From an uncultured Muriicola sp. (GTDB lineage: Bacteria > Bacteroidota > Bacteroidia > Flavobacteriales > Flavobacteriaceae), in the NCBI RefSeq assembly GCF_947258935.1, contig NZ_CAMYKH010000017.1, forward strand, positions 18,233-82,232: a stretch of DNA of 64,000 bases, in the 5' to 3' direction. The notes below the pieces were generated by a model. That model searched no databases and was not told the DNA's origin. It saw nothing but the letters and a program-made list of their open reading frames with translations. Positions 17,304 to 23,892 of the stretch are shown here, piece by piece. The translations under genes and the position numbers were made by a program. Position 1 is the first letter of the stretch. Each line of letters begins with the position of its first letter.

Positions 17304-18065
17304 ATGAAAAAAGTATCAGATCTTTTCCATGGGTTAATGAATTTGAATAGAAATCAGCTTTCTTTTATCATTACCTTTTTTTCCCTTTCCCTGATGATCT
17401 TGCTGCTTTACAATCTACATCTGGGAGCAGAGCAAGAGGATGAATATGTAATAGAAATGAGTCTGGCCGATGAAGATTTGCAGGCACTTTTGGAAGAAGA
17501 AGAGAAAAGGGCCGAAGAATTGGCCAATGCAGATCCTATAAAAAGTAGCCAGGCCGTCAATGAAACTGCTAAACCTAGTATCGGTAGCCCTGAGCCTTTA
17601 AAAACGCTGGAAGAGCTTATGGAAGAGCATAATATTAATCCGGAAGACAATTCCATGGAAGACATTATAAATGCCGATCCCGAATTTGCAGCTGCTTTAA
17701 AGGAAATGGCCAAAATAAGGGAAGAGCGCAAACAGGAGTTAGGTGAAAAAGAAGCTGAGAAAAAAGAATTCACAGATTACCTGGCAAACAAACGCACTCG
17801 TATTACCTATTCTTTGATAGATAGAAGGAATTTTGAACTTCCTCCTCCCATCTATACCTGTCTGGAAGGCGGAACAGTAGTGATCAACATTAAGGTAGAT
17901 AAGTTTGGCTATGTTACGGATGCCGAATTTAATTCCACCAGCTCTAACACTTCTAACGGGTGTCTGGTTGAAAATGCCATAGAATATGCGCTTAAAGCCA
18001 GATTTAACTCCTCCACAAAGATCTCGCAAATAGGGACAATCACCTATCTATTTCAGAGCAAGTAG
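17304..18065 (+). CDS. TonB-like energy transducer protein
   Basis: This 253-residue protein has one N-terminal membrane helix (about residues 20-38), a long acidic and coiled-coil-prone periplasmic region rich in E, A and K (residues 55-155), and a C-terminal domain with PPPIYTCLEGGTVVINIKVDKFGYVTDAEF that resembles the TonB C-terminal fold. It may bridge the inner membrane and cell wall in an ExbB/ExbD-type system, but no exbB or exbD lies near. It closes the ftsX operon, and its 3' end overlaps the convergent thioredoxin-like gene by 18 bases. Confidence 0.7.
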   Translation: MKKVSDLFHGLMNLNRNQLSFIITFFSLSLMILLLYNLHLGAEQEDEYVIEMSLADEDLQALLEEEEKRAEELANADPIKSSQAVNETAKPSIGSPEPLKTLEELMEEHNINPEDNSMEDIINADPEFAAALKEMAKIREERKQELGEKEAEKKEFTDYLANKRTRITYSLIDRRNFELPPPIYTCLEGGTVVINIKVDKFGYVTDAEFNSTSSNTSNGCLVENAIEYALKARFNSSTKISQIGTITYLFQSK

Positions 18066-18674
18066 CTTTTGAAAGTCGTTTAGGATATTTTGTCCTTTAT
18101 CCTTATTGAACCATTGTTGTAGTTCTTCCTTAAATTCCGGAGATAAGGCTCCATGTTTTTGTCTGTACTCATTAGCCATTATGGTAGCTTTTGTAGGTAG
18201 CGGACCCCAGGTTCCCAAAACTTCTGAAGTCTCTTGATCTATCACGATCAATTTAGGGATCGCCATTTTCTCATTGGTAAGAAATGCATCCATCAATTTT
18301 GGATGTTCATTGCGAAGTACGATCTTAAGATCTATTCGATCGTTGTAGGAGGCAATCTTATTCATCACAGGAAGTGAAGGAGCGGAATCACCGCACCAAC
18401 TTTCAGTGATGACCAACCAGTATACTTTTTGTTGATAGTCTGTTAGCTGCTTTACGACCTCTTCCAATATTTTCAATGTTTTATCCCAGCGGCGCATTCT
18501 TTTATCGTTCAGCACAGTATAGTGCTTATTGTCTTCGGTTTGTTCCGGTCCGGTGGTGCCATTATTAGCAGCTAGTTTTGAGACCAATTCCCGAAATTGA
18601 GCATAAGACATGGATTTGGAAATGGCCTTATGGATGATATCTTTTGTAGTATGTTCAGTAAGCGTATTGTTCAT
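18048..18674 (-). CDS. Thioredoxin-family protein with a single active-site Cys
   Basis: This 208-residue cytosolic protein has a thioredoxin-like core (VYWLVITESWCGDSAPSLPVMNKIA near residue 88, KLIVID downstream). The usual CxxC is CGDS here, so only the first cysteine remains; such proteins are common in Bacteroidetes and are not classical disulfide reductases. About 80 residues precede the fold. It is downstream of the TolC gene on the same strand but separated by 107 bases. It overlaps the convergent TonB-like gene at its 3' end. Confidence 0.75.
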   Translation of the reverse strand: MNNTLTEHTTKDIIHKAISKSMSYAQFRELVSKLAANNGTTGPEQTEDNKHYTVLNDKRMRRWDKTLKILEEVVKQLTDYQQKVYWLVITESWCGDSAPSLPVMNKIASYNDRIDLKIVLRNEHPKLMDAFLTNEKMAIPKLIVIDQETSEVLGTWGPLPTKATIMANEYRQKHGALSPEFKEELQQWFNKDKGQNILNDFQKLLALK

Positions 18675-18781: not shown

Positions 18782-20185
18782 TTACAAATTCTCCGGATTG
18801 ATCGCCAGACTCTTAAAAAGCTTTGCTTTGGCCCCAAAGAACTTGTTTTGAAGCTCGTTTTGTTTAAGCCTGGCATCTATAAGTTTGTTTTCCCTGCTAT
18901 TGATCAGGAACAATGAACTCTCGCCAAAACTAAATTTACGTTCTTCACCGTTAAGCAATATTCCATAATTATTTACAATATCAAAAACTAGTTCATTTTG
19001 CTCTTCATAGGAATCGAGTTCATTGTAGATAGCAAGGATCTTATTAGTAATAGATACGGTAGCACTAGAATATTCATATTCTGCATCGCGCAATTTATAT
19101 TTTGCCAATTTTAACTCCCCCCGCTCCTTCCGCAAGAAGAGAGGAAGACTAATATTAACGCCTCCCTTATAATTTTCTGTCTCCAACGAATTGATCAATT
19201 CCGGCGTCTCTGTCAAAAAATTATATTCCAGATCAATCTTTGGCAACAATTGGTTTGTCTTTAGCCTTCTATCTATGATCAACTGATCTATTTTAAGGCC
19301 CAACGATTGTATTTTTGGATGATTTTCAATGGTAAAGCTATCTAGAGACCGTCCAAGTATCTCCAGGGCAGTATCAATTTCATCTTGCAGAGAAGTGTCA
19401 GGTATTACATTATCCTCTAGTTCTAATGGCACATTATTAGACATCCAAAGGAAATTAGAAAGCTCTAAACTCTTGTTCTGTAGTTGCACTTCAGCCTGGG
19501 TTAAACTTAAGGCCCTGTTCTGATAGGCAATTTTTGCTTCCACAGTATCTATTGCAGCAATGTCGCCAGAAAGTGCCCTTGCCTTCACGCCATTAAAGCG
19601 GATCTCTGCATTGTTCAAAAATTGCCTGTATATCTCCCTGGAATTATAGGCTCTTAACCAGTCAAAATACGCCACTGATGCATTAAAAAGGATTTCATTG
19701 ACCAGAAGGTCCCTGTCTACAACAGATTGCTCTCTGAAGAACTTAGCCTTTCGCAGTGTCGCCATCCTATCATTTGCCAGAAACCCCCTCCCTAGTGAGA
19801 AAGAAACACCTGCGCTATAGAGTCCGTCTTCCGGTAAGGTTTCATCCGGGTTTAGAAATTGGCCATCTGTTTGTTCAAAATTTCCCTTTAATTCAATTCC
19901 GTACCAGGTGGGGATCTTAAAAGTAGCATTCAGCCTATCGTAATATTCTGTCCCTTTAAATTTCTTACGGTCATAGTCAACTTCCACTTTGGGATCAAAA
20001 CCACCTCTTGCCTTCATAAGGTTGGCCTCTCCAATGGCCAGGACCAATTCGGCTTGTTTCGCAATTGGATGGTATTTCTTAACATATCCCAGGTATTCCC
20101 GGAAATTCAGTTTGAGGGTGTCATTCCCCTGACCTGAAAGCGACAGGGATACTAATAAACACAACAATGGAAGATACTTCTTCAT
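18782..20185 (-). CDS. TolC-family outer membrane efflux protein
   Basis: This 467-residue protein begins with a signal peptide (MKKYLPLLCLLVSLSLSGQ) and contains long alpha-helical repeats of the outer-membrane efflux family (AELVLAIGEANLMKARGGFDPKVEV near the start; AYFDWLRAYNSREIY in the middle). It would form the outer channel for the HlyD and ABC proteins encoded just upstream. The gene begins two bases after the HlyD stop, so it is the last gene of a tetR-ABC-HlyD-TolC operon. Confidence 0.9.
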   Translation of the reverse strand: MKKYLPLLCLLVSLSLSGQGNDTLKLNFREYLGYVKKYHPIAKQAELVLAIGEANLMKARGGFDPKVEVDYDRKKFKGTEYYDRLNATFKIPTWYGIELKGNFEQTDGQFLNPDETLPEDGLYSAGVSFSLGRGFLANDRMATLRKAKFFREQSVVDRDLLVNEILFNASVAYFDWLRAYNSREIYRQFLNNAEIRFNGVKARALSGDIAAIDTVEAKIAYQNRALSLTQAEVQLQNKSLELSNFLWMSNNVPLELEDNVIPDTSLQDEIDTALEILGRSLDSFTIENHPKIQSLGLKIDQLIIDRRLKTNQLLPKIDLEYNFLTETPELINSLETENYKGGVNISLPLFLRKERGELKLAKYKLRDAEYEYSSATVSITNKILAIYNELDSYEEQNELVFDIVNNYGILLNGEERKFSFGESSLFLINSRENKLIDARLKQNELQNKFFGAKAKLFKSLAINPENL

Positions 20186-20187
20186 AC

Positions 20188-21540
20188 TTACTTTTTCTCA
20201 TTTTGTGCCATCCCATCTTCGGGCTGATAATAATTTGGCGGAAAACCATTTAATTGTCTCCAGAGCTCATACCAGATAGGAACATCATCAAGTAGCGCGA
20301 GTGTATTTGCTCCGGAGCCTACGCGAATGTCCTTAGGCCAAGGATTATCATCCGGATCCTGAGCGAGTAATACCCTGTACTTCCCATTATTACTTATAAA
20401 TGTTTCAATAGCGATGATCTTACCGCCATAGGTTCCATAGGATACATTGGGCCACCCACTAAAAACAATGGCAGGCCATCCATCAAATTGTATCCTCACT
20501 TTTTCTCCTATACTTACCAAAGGCAGGTCTATGGGAGCCACATAGGTTTCCACAGCCATGGCATATTCTGAAGGCATGATCCCTACCAATTTATCTCCTT
20601 CCTTAAAGGTCTCACCAATTCCTGCCTGCAAGGCTTTATTGATATAACCACTCTGAGGTGCCCGGATATAGTACATCTGGCTGCGGATCTCGTAATTGGT
20701 GTATTCGTTTTCGAGCTTGGTCACCTGGGCCTCCGAATCGAACTGATTAGACTGGGCAGTGAACATATCGCTCTGGGCTTTAGAGATCTTATCCGTGTAT
20801 TCTGCCTGCACCCGATTTATCTCCATTGAAGCATTAAGAATCTCGTTCTTAGATGCCAGTAGTTTATTTTCCTGAGAAATTAGTTTTGCCTGTGTTTCCT
20901 GAAGTTTCAGCCTTTTTTCTTCCACATCTGTCACGGCTTTTAGTCCTTCTTCTTCTAATTTCTCAACCCTCTCGAACTGTCTTTGCGCGATAGTTAGGTT
21001 AGTTTTGGCAGCCTCCAAGTCAATACTATCGCTTTGTACTTTTAAATTGGCTTGTAGCAACTTGTTCCTGGCCTGTTCTAATTTTAATAAACGTTCCCTG
21101 TTAAGGGCAATAACCTGAGAGTTAAGTGCCTTTACCTTTCCTTGATAAGAAGTTACGGCCATGGACTTCGATTTAATTTGATCGCCGGTTCTCTCGATTA
21201 GATTTGGATCGAAATATTCATTTTTTACTTCAGATATAAAAAGGATGGTATCCCCTTTTGTCACAAAATCGCCTTCCTGAACATACCACTTTTCAATTCT
21301 ACCGGGGATAGGTGATTGTATTGTTTGAGGACGGTGCTCGGGATTCCGCGTTGTGAGGTATCCTTTTCCTGAGATTGTTTGGGTCCAGGGCAGAAAAAGC
21401 ACTATGAGTCCAAAAAAGGAAAATGCTAGCAGAAAGCGATTAAAATGCTTGTAATGCCTTTTATGAAATACCCTTTGAGAAGATTTATATCGCAAAAGAT
21501 CTACCTGCCTATTTAATTTATTAGGTGAAATATTCAACAT
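20188..21540 (-). CDS. HlyD-family membrane fusion (adaptor) protein
   Basis: This 450-residue periplasmic adaptor has one N-terminal membrane helix (FLLAFSFFGLIVLFLPW, about residues 35-52), a biotinyl-lipoyl-like hairpin (GRIEKWYVQEGDFVTKGDTIL) and a long coiled coil (residues about 120-280), then the barrel region with YYIRAPQSGYINKAL. It links the ABC protein to TolC in type I-like export. It starts 5 bases after the ABC gene. The cargo is unknown. Confidence 0.92.
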   Translation of the reverse strand: MLNISPNKLNRQVDLLRYKSSQRVFHKRHYKHFNRFLLAFSFFGLIVLFLPWTQTISGKGYLTTRNPEHRPQTIQSPIPGRIEKWYVQEGDFVTKGDTILFISEVKNEYFDPNLIERTGDQIKSKSMAVTSYQGKVKALNSQVIALNRERLLKLEQARNKLLQANLKVQSDSIDLEAAKTNLTIAQRQFERVEKLEEEGLKAVTDVEEKRLKLQETQAKLISQENKLLASKNEILNASMEINRVQAEYTDKISKAQSDMFTAQSNQFDSEAQVTKLENEYTNYEIRSQMYYIRAPQSGYINKALQAGIGETFKEGDKLVGIMPSEYAMAVETYVAPIDLPLVSIGEKVRIQFDGWPAIVFSGWPNVSYGTYGGKIIAIETFISNNGKYRVLLAQDPDDNPWPKDIRVGSGANTLALLDDVPIWYELWRQLNGFPPNYYQPEDGMAQNEKK

Positions 21541-21545
21541 AACTT

Positions 21546-23213
21546 CTAACTTTCTTTAATGATTTCGCCATTTTTCATGGTAATGATCCTTGTACAGTTT
21601 TTTACCCACTGAGGATTCTGACTTACGACAACGAGTGCCCATGGATTTTTTCTGTCTACTAGGAAATCCATGATCTTCCGGGATTCATCGGGATTAAAAT
21701 GATCTAGAGGGTCTTTCAGGATCAATAAACGTGGCTTTCGCACAATACTTCTGGCCAGTACAATCTTTTTTGAGATCACGTAAGGTATTTGTTGCCCCTC
21801 AGGATAAAGCATAGTCCTCAGGCCTTTTGGTTGCTCTTTAACAAACTCAGTGAGCCCTGCCTTTTCTAGTGCCCAATAGACATCGTCCTCACTTACTGAA
21901 ACATCCCCAAAGGTGATATTTTCGAGTATGCTGCCTTCAAATGGTGATTCTTCGGTTAAGGACTGACCTACATGAGAGCGGTAGTAATTAAGAGAAATAG
22001 AGGTCAAGGACACATTATTAACATAAATGGCTCCTGCATCGGGCTCCAGAATACCTGCCATTAGTCTTAATAGGGTAGATTTGCCCGAACTACTATCACC
22101 GTTTATTAAAATGGTACACTCAGGAGTGATCATAAGTGACAACTTTTTTATGACGTATTTATTGGTTTTGGGAACTTTGTATTCAATATCCTTCAATTCT
22201 ACATTGAACGGGGCATTATCGCTAAAAGGGTGCTCCCCATCCTGAGATTCCAATTCTTTATCTACAACCTGACCGAGTTTTTCGAGCGAAGTAAGCAGGT
22301 CATAGAAAGTTTCCAGTCCCAGGATAAGTTTTTCAACACTATTGATTACCAGAAGAATGATAATCTCTGCTGCTACGAACTGGCCTATATTCATCTCCTG
22401 ATTCAAAACGAGGATTCCACCAATAAGTAAAAGGCCAACTGTAACCAGTACTTTAAAGCCGATCATCTGAATAAACTGGATTACCAGAATACGGAAATGA
22501 CCTTCACGGGCTTGTAGGTACTTCTCCACCAGAATATCATTTTTATCCATGGCAAGACTGGTCTTCCCGGATAGCTTAAAACTGATGATAGATCTGGCAA
22601 CTTCCTGTAACCAGTGTGCCACCCTATATTTATTTTCAGACTCTTCCAGGCTGGTGTCCAAACCTTTTTGTGCGGTAAATTTGAACACAAAATAAATTAA
22701 TAGCAGTAACAGGAAACCATAGATAATAAAGAAGGGGTGGTAAAATGATAGCAACATAAGACCAAAGATGATCTGCAGTAATGCAGCCGGAAAATCTATC
22801 AGGATCTTTGCCAACCCCTTTTGAACGGTAAGGGTGTCGAAGAAACGGTTAGCCAGCTCCGGGGGATATACATTACGAAGCTCGCTCATCTTAATTTTTG
22901 GAAAGCGATAAGCAAATTCAAAAGATGAACGCGTAAAGATCTTTTGCTGTATATTCTCAATGATCCTGATTTGCATAAGCTGTAAAATCCCAACAAATGC
23001 AACCCCAAGAGTTACCAGTATAACAAGGACAATCCATGAGGTGCTAATCTGCGCTCCCTGAATTAAGTTAATGATAGCCTGGATACCCAAAGGAAGAGAG
23101 AGGTTAACCAGACCGGCAAAGATGGCATAGTAAAATACCTGCATTACATCTCTTTTATCTAACTGGAGCATTCCCAGTAATCTTTGCCAGGCAGTAAGTA
23201 CAGTTTTAGCCAT
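21546..23213 (-). CDS. ABC exporter (fused TMD-NBD) with degenerate ATPase motifs
   Basis: This 555-residue fused exporter has six membrane helices (about residues 25-300) and an NBD from 335. Walker A GDSSSGKST (372-380) and the Q-loop Gln417 are present. The LSGGQ signature is absent (the position reads IPYVISKK), the Walker B Asp-Glu pair reads Lys-Asp (LLILKDPLDHF), and the switch His is Gln (VVVSQNPQ). No peptidase C39 domain is present. The gene overlaps tetR by 8 bases and the HlyD gene follows after 5 bases. The layout is a type I secretion-like exporter, but ATP hydrolysis is uncertain. I believe relatives share the degeneracy, but this is unchecked. Confidence 0.85.
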   Translation of the reverse strand: MAKTVLTAWQRLLGMLQLDKRDVMQVFYYAIFAGLVNLSLPLGIQAIINLIQGAQISTSWIVLVILVTLGVAFVGILQLMQIRIIENIQQKIFTRSSFEFAYRFPKIKMSELRNVYPPELANRFFDTLTVQKGLAKILIDFPAALLQIIFGLMLLSFYHPFFIIYGFLLLLLIYFVFKFTAQKGLDTSLEESENKYRVAHWLQEVARSIISFKLSGKTSLAMDKNDILVEKYLQAREGHFRILVIQFIQMIGFKVLVTVGLLLIGGILVLNQEMNIGQFVAAEIIILLVINSVEKLILGLETFYDLLTSLEKLGQVVDKELESQDGEHPFSDNAPFNVELKDIEYKVPKTNKYVIKKLSLMITPECTILINGDSSSGKSTLLRLMAGILEPDAGAIYVNNVSLTSISLNYYRSHVGQSLTEESPFEGSILENITFGDVSVSEDDVYWALEKAGLTEFVKEQPKGLRTMLYPEGQQIPYVISKKIVLARSIVRKPRLLILKDPLDHFNPDESRKIMDFLVDRKNPWALVVVSQNPQWVKNCTRIITMKNGEIIKES

Positions 23214-23892
23214 TCGTGTTCTTGTTTAAAGAATTAAATACCAAATGAGAGAAGTATTCCGTTGGGGTAACCTCTTTGTTACAATTGGTCAGAGAAGGGA
23301 AATGTTGTGTCAGGAAATACTGGTGAAGGGTTCCATCCAATGCAGTACTCGCAAGGCTTGAAGGAAAGGGGTACTCCTGATCAACCTCTATGATCATTTC
23401 ACTGATCCGTAAGACCATACGCTTATATATTTCAAAATATCCTTCTTTATTTTCGGTGTCTACTTCTTTTGTAAGATAAGATTTTGAGTATTCATTTATA
23501 ATGATATTATTTAACAAGACCTCATTAATATGAGAAAAGGAGGTATCCAGAACTACTGGCTTGCTTATGATCTCAATTGCTATTCTGAGTTTCTCTGAAG
23601 GATCGGCAATACTGTTTGTTGCAAAGACCAACTGATATTCTAACCAACCCCAGTACCAGGAGGTCAAATAAAGTAACAACTTATGTTTGTTCTCAAAATA
23701 TCGGTATATAGAACTCTCATTGGAACTTATCCTATCTCCTAATTTTTTAAATGTAAATGCCTCAAATCCTATTTCATGGATCAAGAGAATACTGTGTTCC
23801 ACTATTCTTTTACCCAAAGCAGAAGATTCAGGATCCTTCAAATATGTCTTTTTGTTTACTTCAATCTTGATTGTTTGCAGCAAATGTTTCAT
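23206..23892 (-). CDS. TetR/AcrR-family transcriptional regulator
   Basis: This 228-residue protein has an N-terminal TetR helix-turn-helix (LIHEIGFEAFTFKKLGDRISSNESSIYRYFENKHKLLLYL, about residues 36-75) and a helical ligand-binding domain. It is the first gene of the exporter operon and overlaps the ABC gene by 8 bases, so it probably controls the operon and itself. A perfect palindrome directly upstream of its -7 box is a good candidate operator. Confidence 0.9.
   Translation of the reverse strand: MKHLLQTIKIEVNKKTYLKDPESSALGKRIVEHSILLIHEIGFEAFTFKKLGDRISSNESSIYRYFENKHKLLLYLTSWYWGWLEYQLVFATNSIADPSEKLRIAIEIISKPVVLDTSFSHINEVLLNNIIINEYSKSYLTKEVDTENKEGYFEIYKRMVLRISEMIIEVDQEYPFPSSLASTALDGTLHQYFLTQHFPSLTNCNKEVTPTEYFSHLVFNSLNKNTNG

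Follow-up and report, generated by a model that had tools for sequence, protein, structure and literature searches.

The window, which is the whole stretch of DNA analysed (64,000 nucleotides), encodes a tripartite exporter system in which an ABC-type transmembrane domain (TMD) is combined with an HlyD-family adaptor and a TolC-family protein, together with a TetR-family regulator. We consider it likely that this system represents a Bacteroidota exporter family that has grown independent of ATP hydrolysis. Near the base of Bacteroidia, the Q-loop, signature, Walker B/catalytic and switch residues disappeared from the nucleotide-binding domain (NBD) of the family, and strong purifying selection continued to act on the TMD and the operon. 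The chances are slightly better than even that the whole family switched from an ATP-driven to a hydrolysis-independent mode near the root of Bacteroidia, through steps that are still extant and that end in an architecture in which the TMD is fused to HlyD.

Operon and Motif State of the Window Protein

The four genes of the operon lie on the minus strand in the order TetR-ABC-HlyD-TolC. The TetR-family gene (23206..23892; PF00440, 3.7e-07) comes first, and its stop overlaps by 8 nt the start of the second gene, that of the ABC half-exporter (21546..23213), which is present with an intact frame of 555 aa. The genes for the HlyD-family periplasmic adaptor (20188..21540; PF13437, 1.4e-11; TIGR01843, 7.7e-24) and the TolC-family outer-membrane protein (18782..20185; PF02321, 5e-34) follow after gaps of 5 nt and 2 nt, respectively. 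The operon is thus tightly spaced, and its conservation and the strong purifying selection on it bear out the claim of a sequence-only reading of this DNA that it is intact. Control by a TetR regulator presumably hints, though weakly, at small hydrophobic ligands as the cargo. A gene for a thioredoxin-like protein of 208 aa (18048-18674, minus strand) is located downstream of the TolC gene. The HlyD protein of the window contains a strongly conserved motif, FDGWPA.VFSGWP..S.GT, which is also found in the fusions and TMD-only operons described below and is a possible marker of the family.

The ABC protein has the architecture of a type IV ABC exporter, in which the TMD (PF00664, 4.4e-08; residues 1-325, 22239..23213), the conserved core of the family, is followed by a degenerate NBD (PF00005, 1.6e-14; residues 331-555, 21549..22223). 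The catalytic columns of the NBD were set by alignment with 10 NBDs of the same phylum bearing the canonical Q, GGQ, D, E and H residues. In this alignment, Walker A is kept as GDSSSGKST (residues 372-380, 22074..22100), whereas the signature LSGGQ is replaced by IPYVI (residues 476-480, 21774..21788), the Asp-Glu pair at the end of Walker B by Lys500-Asp501 (21711..21716), and the switch (H-loop) His by Gln532 (21618..21620), in agreement with what had been noticed from the letters alone. The Q-loop had been taken as kept as well, and here the alignment corrects the earlier assignment: the Q-loop column contains Gln in 10 of 10 canonical NBDs and Thr420 in the window protein (21954..21956), and the 'GQ' that had been noticed lies three residues upstream of the column. 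The D-loop (SALD) is also missing. With the signature, the Walker B pair, the Q-loop Gln and the switch His of an active ATPase replaced, the NBD is not expected to hydrolyse ATP normally, as had been proposed.

Conservation of the Degenerate Domain in Bacteroidia

A near-full-length orthologue was found in 30 of 59 related genomes at an identity of 38-93%. The signature GG and the switch His are lost in all 29 of these 30 orthologues that were aligned with the window protein, and identical losses in so many related genomes exclude chance or sequencing error as their cause. In a class-wide sample of Bacteroidia, a strong match was obtained in 149 of 295 genomes (138 of 253 among the genomes of good quality), and a query consisting of the TMD only matched 196 of 395 genomes. 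About half of the operons carry a TetR regulator. One genome (G073) contains two complete paralogous TetR-TMD/NBD-HlyD-TolC operons (L154, L155).

The loss of the motifs extends throughout the class and is ancient, which answers the question of their conservation that the sequence-only reading had raised. Among 195 non-redundant NBD-bearing sequences, the Walker A Lys378 is kept in 178, whereas the Q-loop Gln is found in 5, the second signature Gly in 7, the Walker B Asp in 27, the catalytic Glu in 20 and the His in 5. When the set {Q, G, D, E, H} was counted in 99 diverse Bacteroidia-type NBDs, 56 kept none of the five residues, and the maximum of three was reached by one member. Walker A belongs to the best-kept parts of the NBD, the conservation being 0.93 at G372, 0.90 at G377 and 0.87 at K378. 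In a group of Maribacter sequences (L070, L076, L077, L079, L084, L092, L107, L123, L129, L132 and L135), the Ser/Thr of Walker A is changed to Asn (GSGKNT), by which the lysine is retained and a further Mg ligand is removed.

The two domains differ clearly in the strength of selection. In the 99 NBD-bearing members, 65 of 315 columns of the TMD are conserved at 90% or more, compared with 9 of 222 columns of the NBD. Between congeners, the TMD has a dN/dS of 0.007-0.019 and the NBD one of 0.039-0.063, with synonymous sites near saturation in most pairs. The ratio of protein divergence between the NBD and the TMD is 3-6, compared with 1.0-1.8 in the single canonical exporter of the same genus that served as the rate control. 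These values indicate that the NBD is under selection, which is unusually weak relative to that on its own TMD.

Relatives in Other Classes and the Timing of the Loss

A phylum-wide search yielded relatives in other classes (L282-L299) with an identity of 31-37%, whose HlyD partners show an identity of 30-35%; the sole locus among them at which HlyD was undetected is L287. These relatives mostly retain the LDE of Walker B and the switch His, and their signature is half-eroded, ranging from LSTGQ to MPIGL. Four of the residues {Q, G, D, E, H} are kept in 13 of 17 members, the missing one being the Q-loop Gln. As most members from other classes keep four of the five residues, against at most three in Bacteroidia, we date the catalytic loss to a point close to the base of Bacteroidia. 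Two members from genomes labelled as another class, L300 (G483) and L301 (G603), nest within the degenerate group of the Bacteroidia type, which may be due to horizontal transfer or to an effect of the class boundary.

In many relatives (L144, L148, L154, L166 and L282-L297), an N-terminal domain of about 150-200 aa (130-200 aa at these loci) precedes the TMD. This extension is present in 15 of the 17 members outside Bacteroidia and absent from the TMD-only, fusion and window forms. Pfam scans of two members at E 0.01 and a PDB search with one member at E 1 returned no match for it, and it might descend from a secretion-type ancestor as a degenerate C39-like domain.

Relatives Without the NBD

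The tree shows that Walker A was lost on several branches within Bacteroidia, and two forms of the protein have no NBD. In nine genomes of three families (L179-L183, L201-L208), the protein consists of the TMD only, with a length of 333-339 aa at the loci read. In ten genomes of six families (L185-L187, L230-L239), the TMD is joined directly to HlyD with no intervening NBD, giving a protein of about 750-780 aa. One example of each form was scanned with Pfam, and PF00664 alone was obtained for the TMD-only form and PF00664 plus HlyD for the fusion. Wherever the flanks were read, the operon is kept, as TMD-HlyD-TolC or as TetR / TMD::HlyD-TolC, and among these genomes are several complete or almost complete ones. 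An assembly or frameshift artefact was considered for the TMD-only group and rejected, as the frames are clean in nine genomes, near-complete ones included, and the start of HlyD overlaps the stop of the TMD at several loci. The dN of the NBD-less TMDs is 0.11-0.23, at saturated synonymous sites, which indicates that they are working proteins.

Trees were calculated from the TMD alone (126 rows) and from the TMD plus HlyD (135 rows, rooted on the other classes). In both trees, each NBD-less form is a single clade with a support of 99-100. The TMD-only clade is sister to the NBD-bearing L164 (SH-aLRT 98 and 100), and the fusions group with the NBD-bearing L149, L161, L030 and L167 (96 in the TMD plus HlyD tree). 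The minimum number of NBD losses is two on both trees, although a tree in which both forms are forced into one clade was not rejected by the AU test (p = 0.63 for the TMD, where the forced tree was slightly better, and 0.109 for the TMD plus HlyD). The NBD was thus deleted altogether at least once, and probably two times.

When the NBD-less genomes were searched with a sister NBD, no family-type NBD was found elsewhere in them; the best matches reached at most 103 bits and were nearly all ordinary exporters of about 600 aa, compared with 494 bits for the positive controls. A partner NBD in the operon, or a family NBD split off to act in trans, was found neither at the loci nor across these genomes. 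The coupling-helix region of the intracellular loop ICL2 (residues 197-218, 22560..22625) shows a conservation that tracks the presence of the NBD. The pairwise identity of this region minus that of the rest of the TMD is −0.16 in the TMD-only form and −0.44 in the fusions, where it is partly deleted, whereas it is about 0.00 in matched NBD-bearing control sets, with minima of −0.105 and −0.085 in 36 and 60 sets, respectively. Because ICL2 is conserved in the NBD-bearing members, among them that of the window, docking of the dead NBD on the TMD has most likely persisted in them. The relaxation or loss of ICL2 in the NBD-less members indicates that nothing docks there, which argues against a replacement NBD supplied in trans.

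Charged Residues and Structure Model

Seven charged residues within or at the edge of the membrane, E86, K132, K136, K254 (K/R), E283, E294 and K295, hardly vary in any form of the protein, with or without an NBD, and the same holds for K195, R236 and K312. Glu283 (22365..22367) is invariant in 118 of 118 tabulated Bacteroidia-type members, among them those without an NBD. Relatives whose NBD is nearly canonical conserve the same candidates, which are therefore not specific to independence from ATP. A derived proton-binding residue gained together with the loss of the NBD was searched for and none was found; the conserved charges predate the loss, and being older than it they cannot yet be named as proton sites.

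The AlphaFold model has a mean pLDDT of 69.2 and a pTM of 0.53, with values of about 80-89 over most of the NBD and a weaker TMD of six long helices, and in view of this weakness it was used solely for the identity of the domains and the limits of the helices. According to these limits, TM6 would contain E283 in its outer part and TM5 would contain K254, and E86, K132 and K136 would lie towards the cytoplasmic side. Foldseek related the model with a probability of 1.00 to the type IV ABC exporters TM287/288, PCAT1, TmrAB, TAP, HlyB and PrtD; the TM-scores were low, about 0.45, presumably because the relative placement of the domains is uncertain.

Proposed Mechanism and Alternatives

In the mechanism that we propose, the TMD would work as a secondary transporter, probably coupled to the proton motive force, or as a gated conduit, and would pass its cargo to HlyD-TolC. 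SbmA, an ABC-type TMD without an NBD that is believed to have arisen by NBD loss from an ABC transporter, is driven by the proton gradient (PMC13316013), and by this analogy proton coupling would be the most economical guess. The NBD of the window protein would hydrolyse no ATP; it may remain attached to the coupling helix as a cassette with a structural or nucleotide-sensing role, and it is selected less strongly than the TMD. The retention of Walker A in most NBD-bearing members suggests that the binding of nucleotide may still matter there.

The main rival of this mechanism, which we regard as rather unlikely, is a non-hydrolytic transporter or channel gated by ATP binding, where ATP on Walker A closes or orders the NBD dimer and the NBD-less clades are later derivatives. 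The glycines and lysine of Walker A are indeed among the best-kept residues of the NBD, the coupling helix is conserved in the forms that bear one, and a parallel exists in the exporter TmrAB, where the binding of ATP was reported in a 2026 study to be sufficient to power the translocation of substrate (PMC13040083). However, the opposing signature, which would clamp the gamma-phosphate, has been lost, and so have the Mg ligands (the Q-loop Gln and the Walker B Asp, and in the Maribacter group also the Walker A Ser/Thr), which makes ATP-driven closure of the dimer doubtful; moreover, Walker A itself was lost repeatedly, and forms without any NBD persist. A different use of ATP binding, one of the two options offered by the sequence-only reading, could still apply to the window copy because its Walker A is kept, whereas the pattern across the whole family speaks for an exporter that does without the ATPase. 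If the protein were instead to serve the HlyD-TolC duct as a scaffold in the membrane or as a regulator, and were no transporter itself, both the tolerance of NBD loss and the fusion with HlyD would be accounted for; we judge this improbable, since the entire six-helix TMD and its invariant charges are maintained at a dN/dS of about 0.01, which is stronger than an anchor seems to need, and about half of the operons have a TetR regulator as efflux systems do.

Asp in place of the catalytic Glu and Gln in place of the switch His resemble the degenerate sites of TAP1, TM287 and other subunits of heterodimeric exporters, and the source genome encodes other ABC exporters, so that a canonical ABC subunit encoded elsewhere might supply the one working site of a heterodimer. 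Pairing with another NBD, the second option of the earlier reading, has nevertheless become very improbable: the locus contains no second NBD, no second ABC gene occurs inside about 60 inspected operons, and the flanks contain one other NBD-bearing gene (upstream, L151). Furthermore, the NBD-less genomes encode no family-type NBD elsewhere, and their coupling helix, on which a partner NBD would have to dock, is relaxed or lost. The lost catalytic motifs would also fit recent pseudogenisation of the window copy, a case that the intact frame, the conserved operon, the NBD dN/dS of 0.04-0.06 and the identical losses across the class leave practically ruled out. In the sequence-only reading, canonical homologues would have marked this copy as merely decaying, and more canonical homologues were found only in other classes of the phylum.

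Relation to Known Systems

SbmA/BacA (SLiPT), derived from YddA-type ABC transporters, resembles the NBD-less forms of the present family in that an exporter-type TMD functions without an NBD. The SbmA-type absence of the NBD applies to the TMD-only and fusion relatives only, the window protein having a degenerate NBD, and the TMDs of the window and of its NBD-less relatives match no SbmA/BacA family model, as Pfam gives PF00664 only. In addition, SbmA is a solitary importer of Gram-negative bacteria with a YddA-like ancestor, whereas the family studied here is a type-I-secretion-like half-exporter of Bacteroidota encoded in an operon with HlyD and TolC. Unlike the case of SbmA, the intermediates are all extant here, namely the dead NBD, the loss of Walker A, the absence of the NBD and the fusion with HlyD. 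The best reading is that the family would be analogous to SbmA yet independent of it.

The operon of an ABC half-exporter, HlyD and TolC is also similar to type I secretion systems of the HlyB-HlyD-TolC, PrtD and LssB type, in line with the Foldseek matches to HlyB and PrtD. The best NCBIfam match of the window protein is TIGR03375 (type I secretion permease/ATPase; 1.3e-50), which with 172.5 of 693.1 bits is far below the cut-off; the scores for the other type I secretion models TIGR01846 (143.8 of 725.6 bits) and TIGR01842 (131.1 of 510.2 bits) are also below theirs. In contrast to type I secretion, the Bacteroidia members have no functional ATPase motifs, and two clades have no NBD. The top Foldseek matches TM287/288, TmrAB and TAP share the type IV exporter fold; these exporters pair a degenerate site with a canonical one, whereas the window operon encodes a single subunit and contains no partner subunit with a canonical NBD, so that neither site of a homodimer would be active. 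The combination of an ABC protein, an adaptor and TolC in efflux is further shared with MacAB-TolC and other ABC tripartite pumps; MacB differs in its mechanism and is folded unlike the other ABC transporters characterised so far (PMC5985334).

No description of this exporter family was found in the literature searched, which contained few of the subscription journals and preprints. SbmA is already known as an ABC-type TMD that has shed its ATPase; the lineage, the direction of transport, the tripartite setting, the intermediates and the TMD::HlyD fusion are new to us. ABC exporters are defined by ATP hydrolysis, and to our knowledge only SbmA-like importers are well described as ABC-type TMDs stripped of the ATPase. 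Here, one family in the same operon presents nearly canonical, dead, Walker-A-less and NBD-less forms as well as a fusion with the adaptor. This series makes it possible to test the capabilities of an ABC-type TMD in the absence of hydrolysis, the source of its energy and the way in which a tripartite export machine is rebuilt. About half of the sampled Bacteroidia have the system, and since Pfam scores the family like any ordinary ABC exporter, ATP-driven efflux is probably the wrong prediction for its members.
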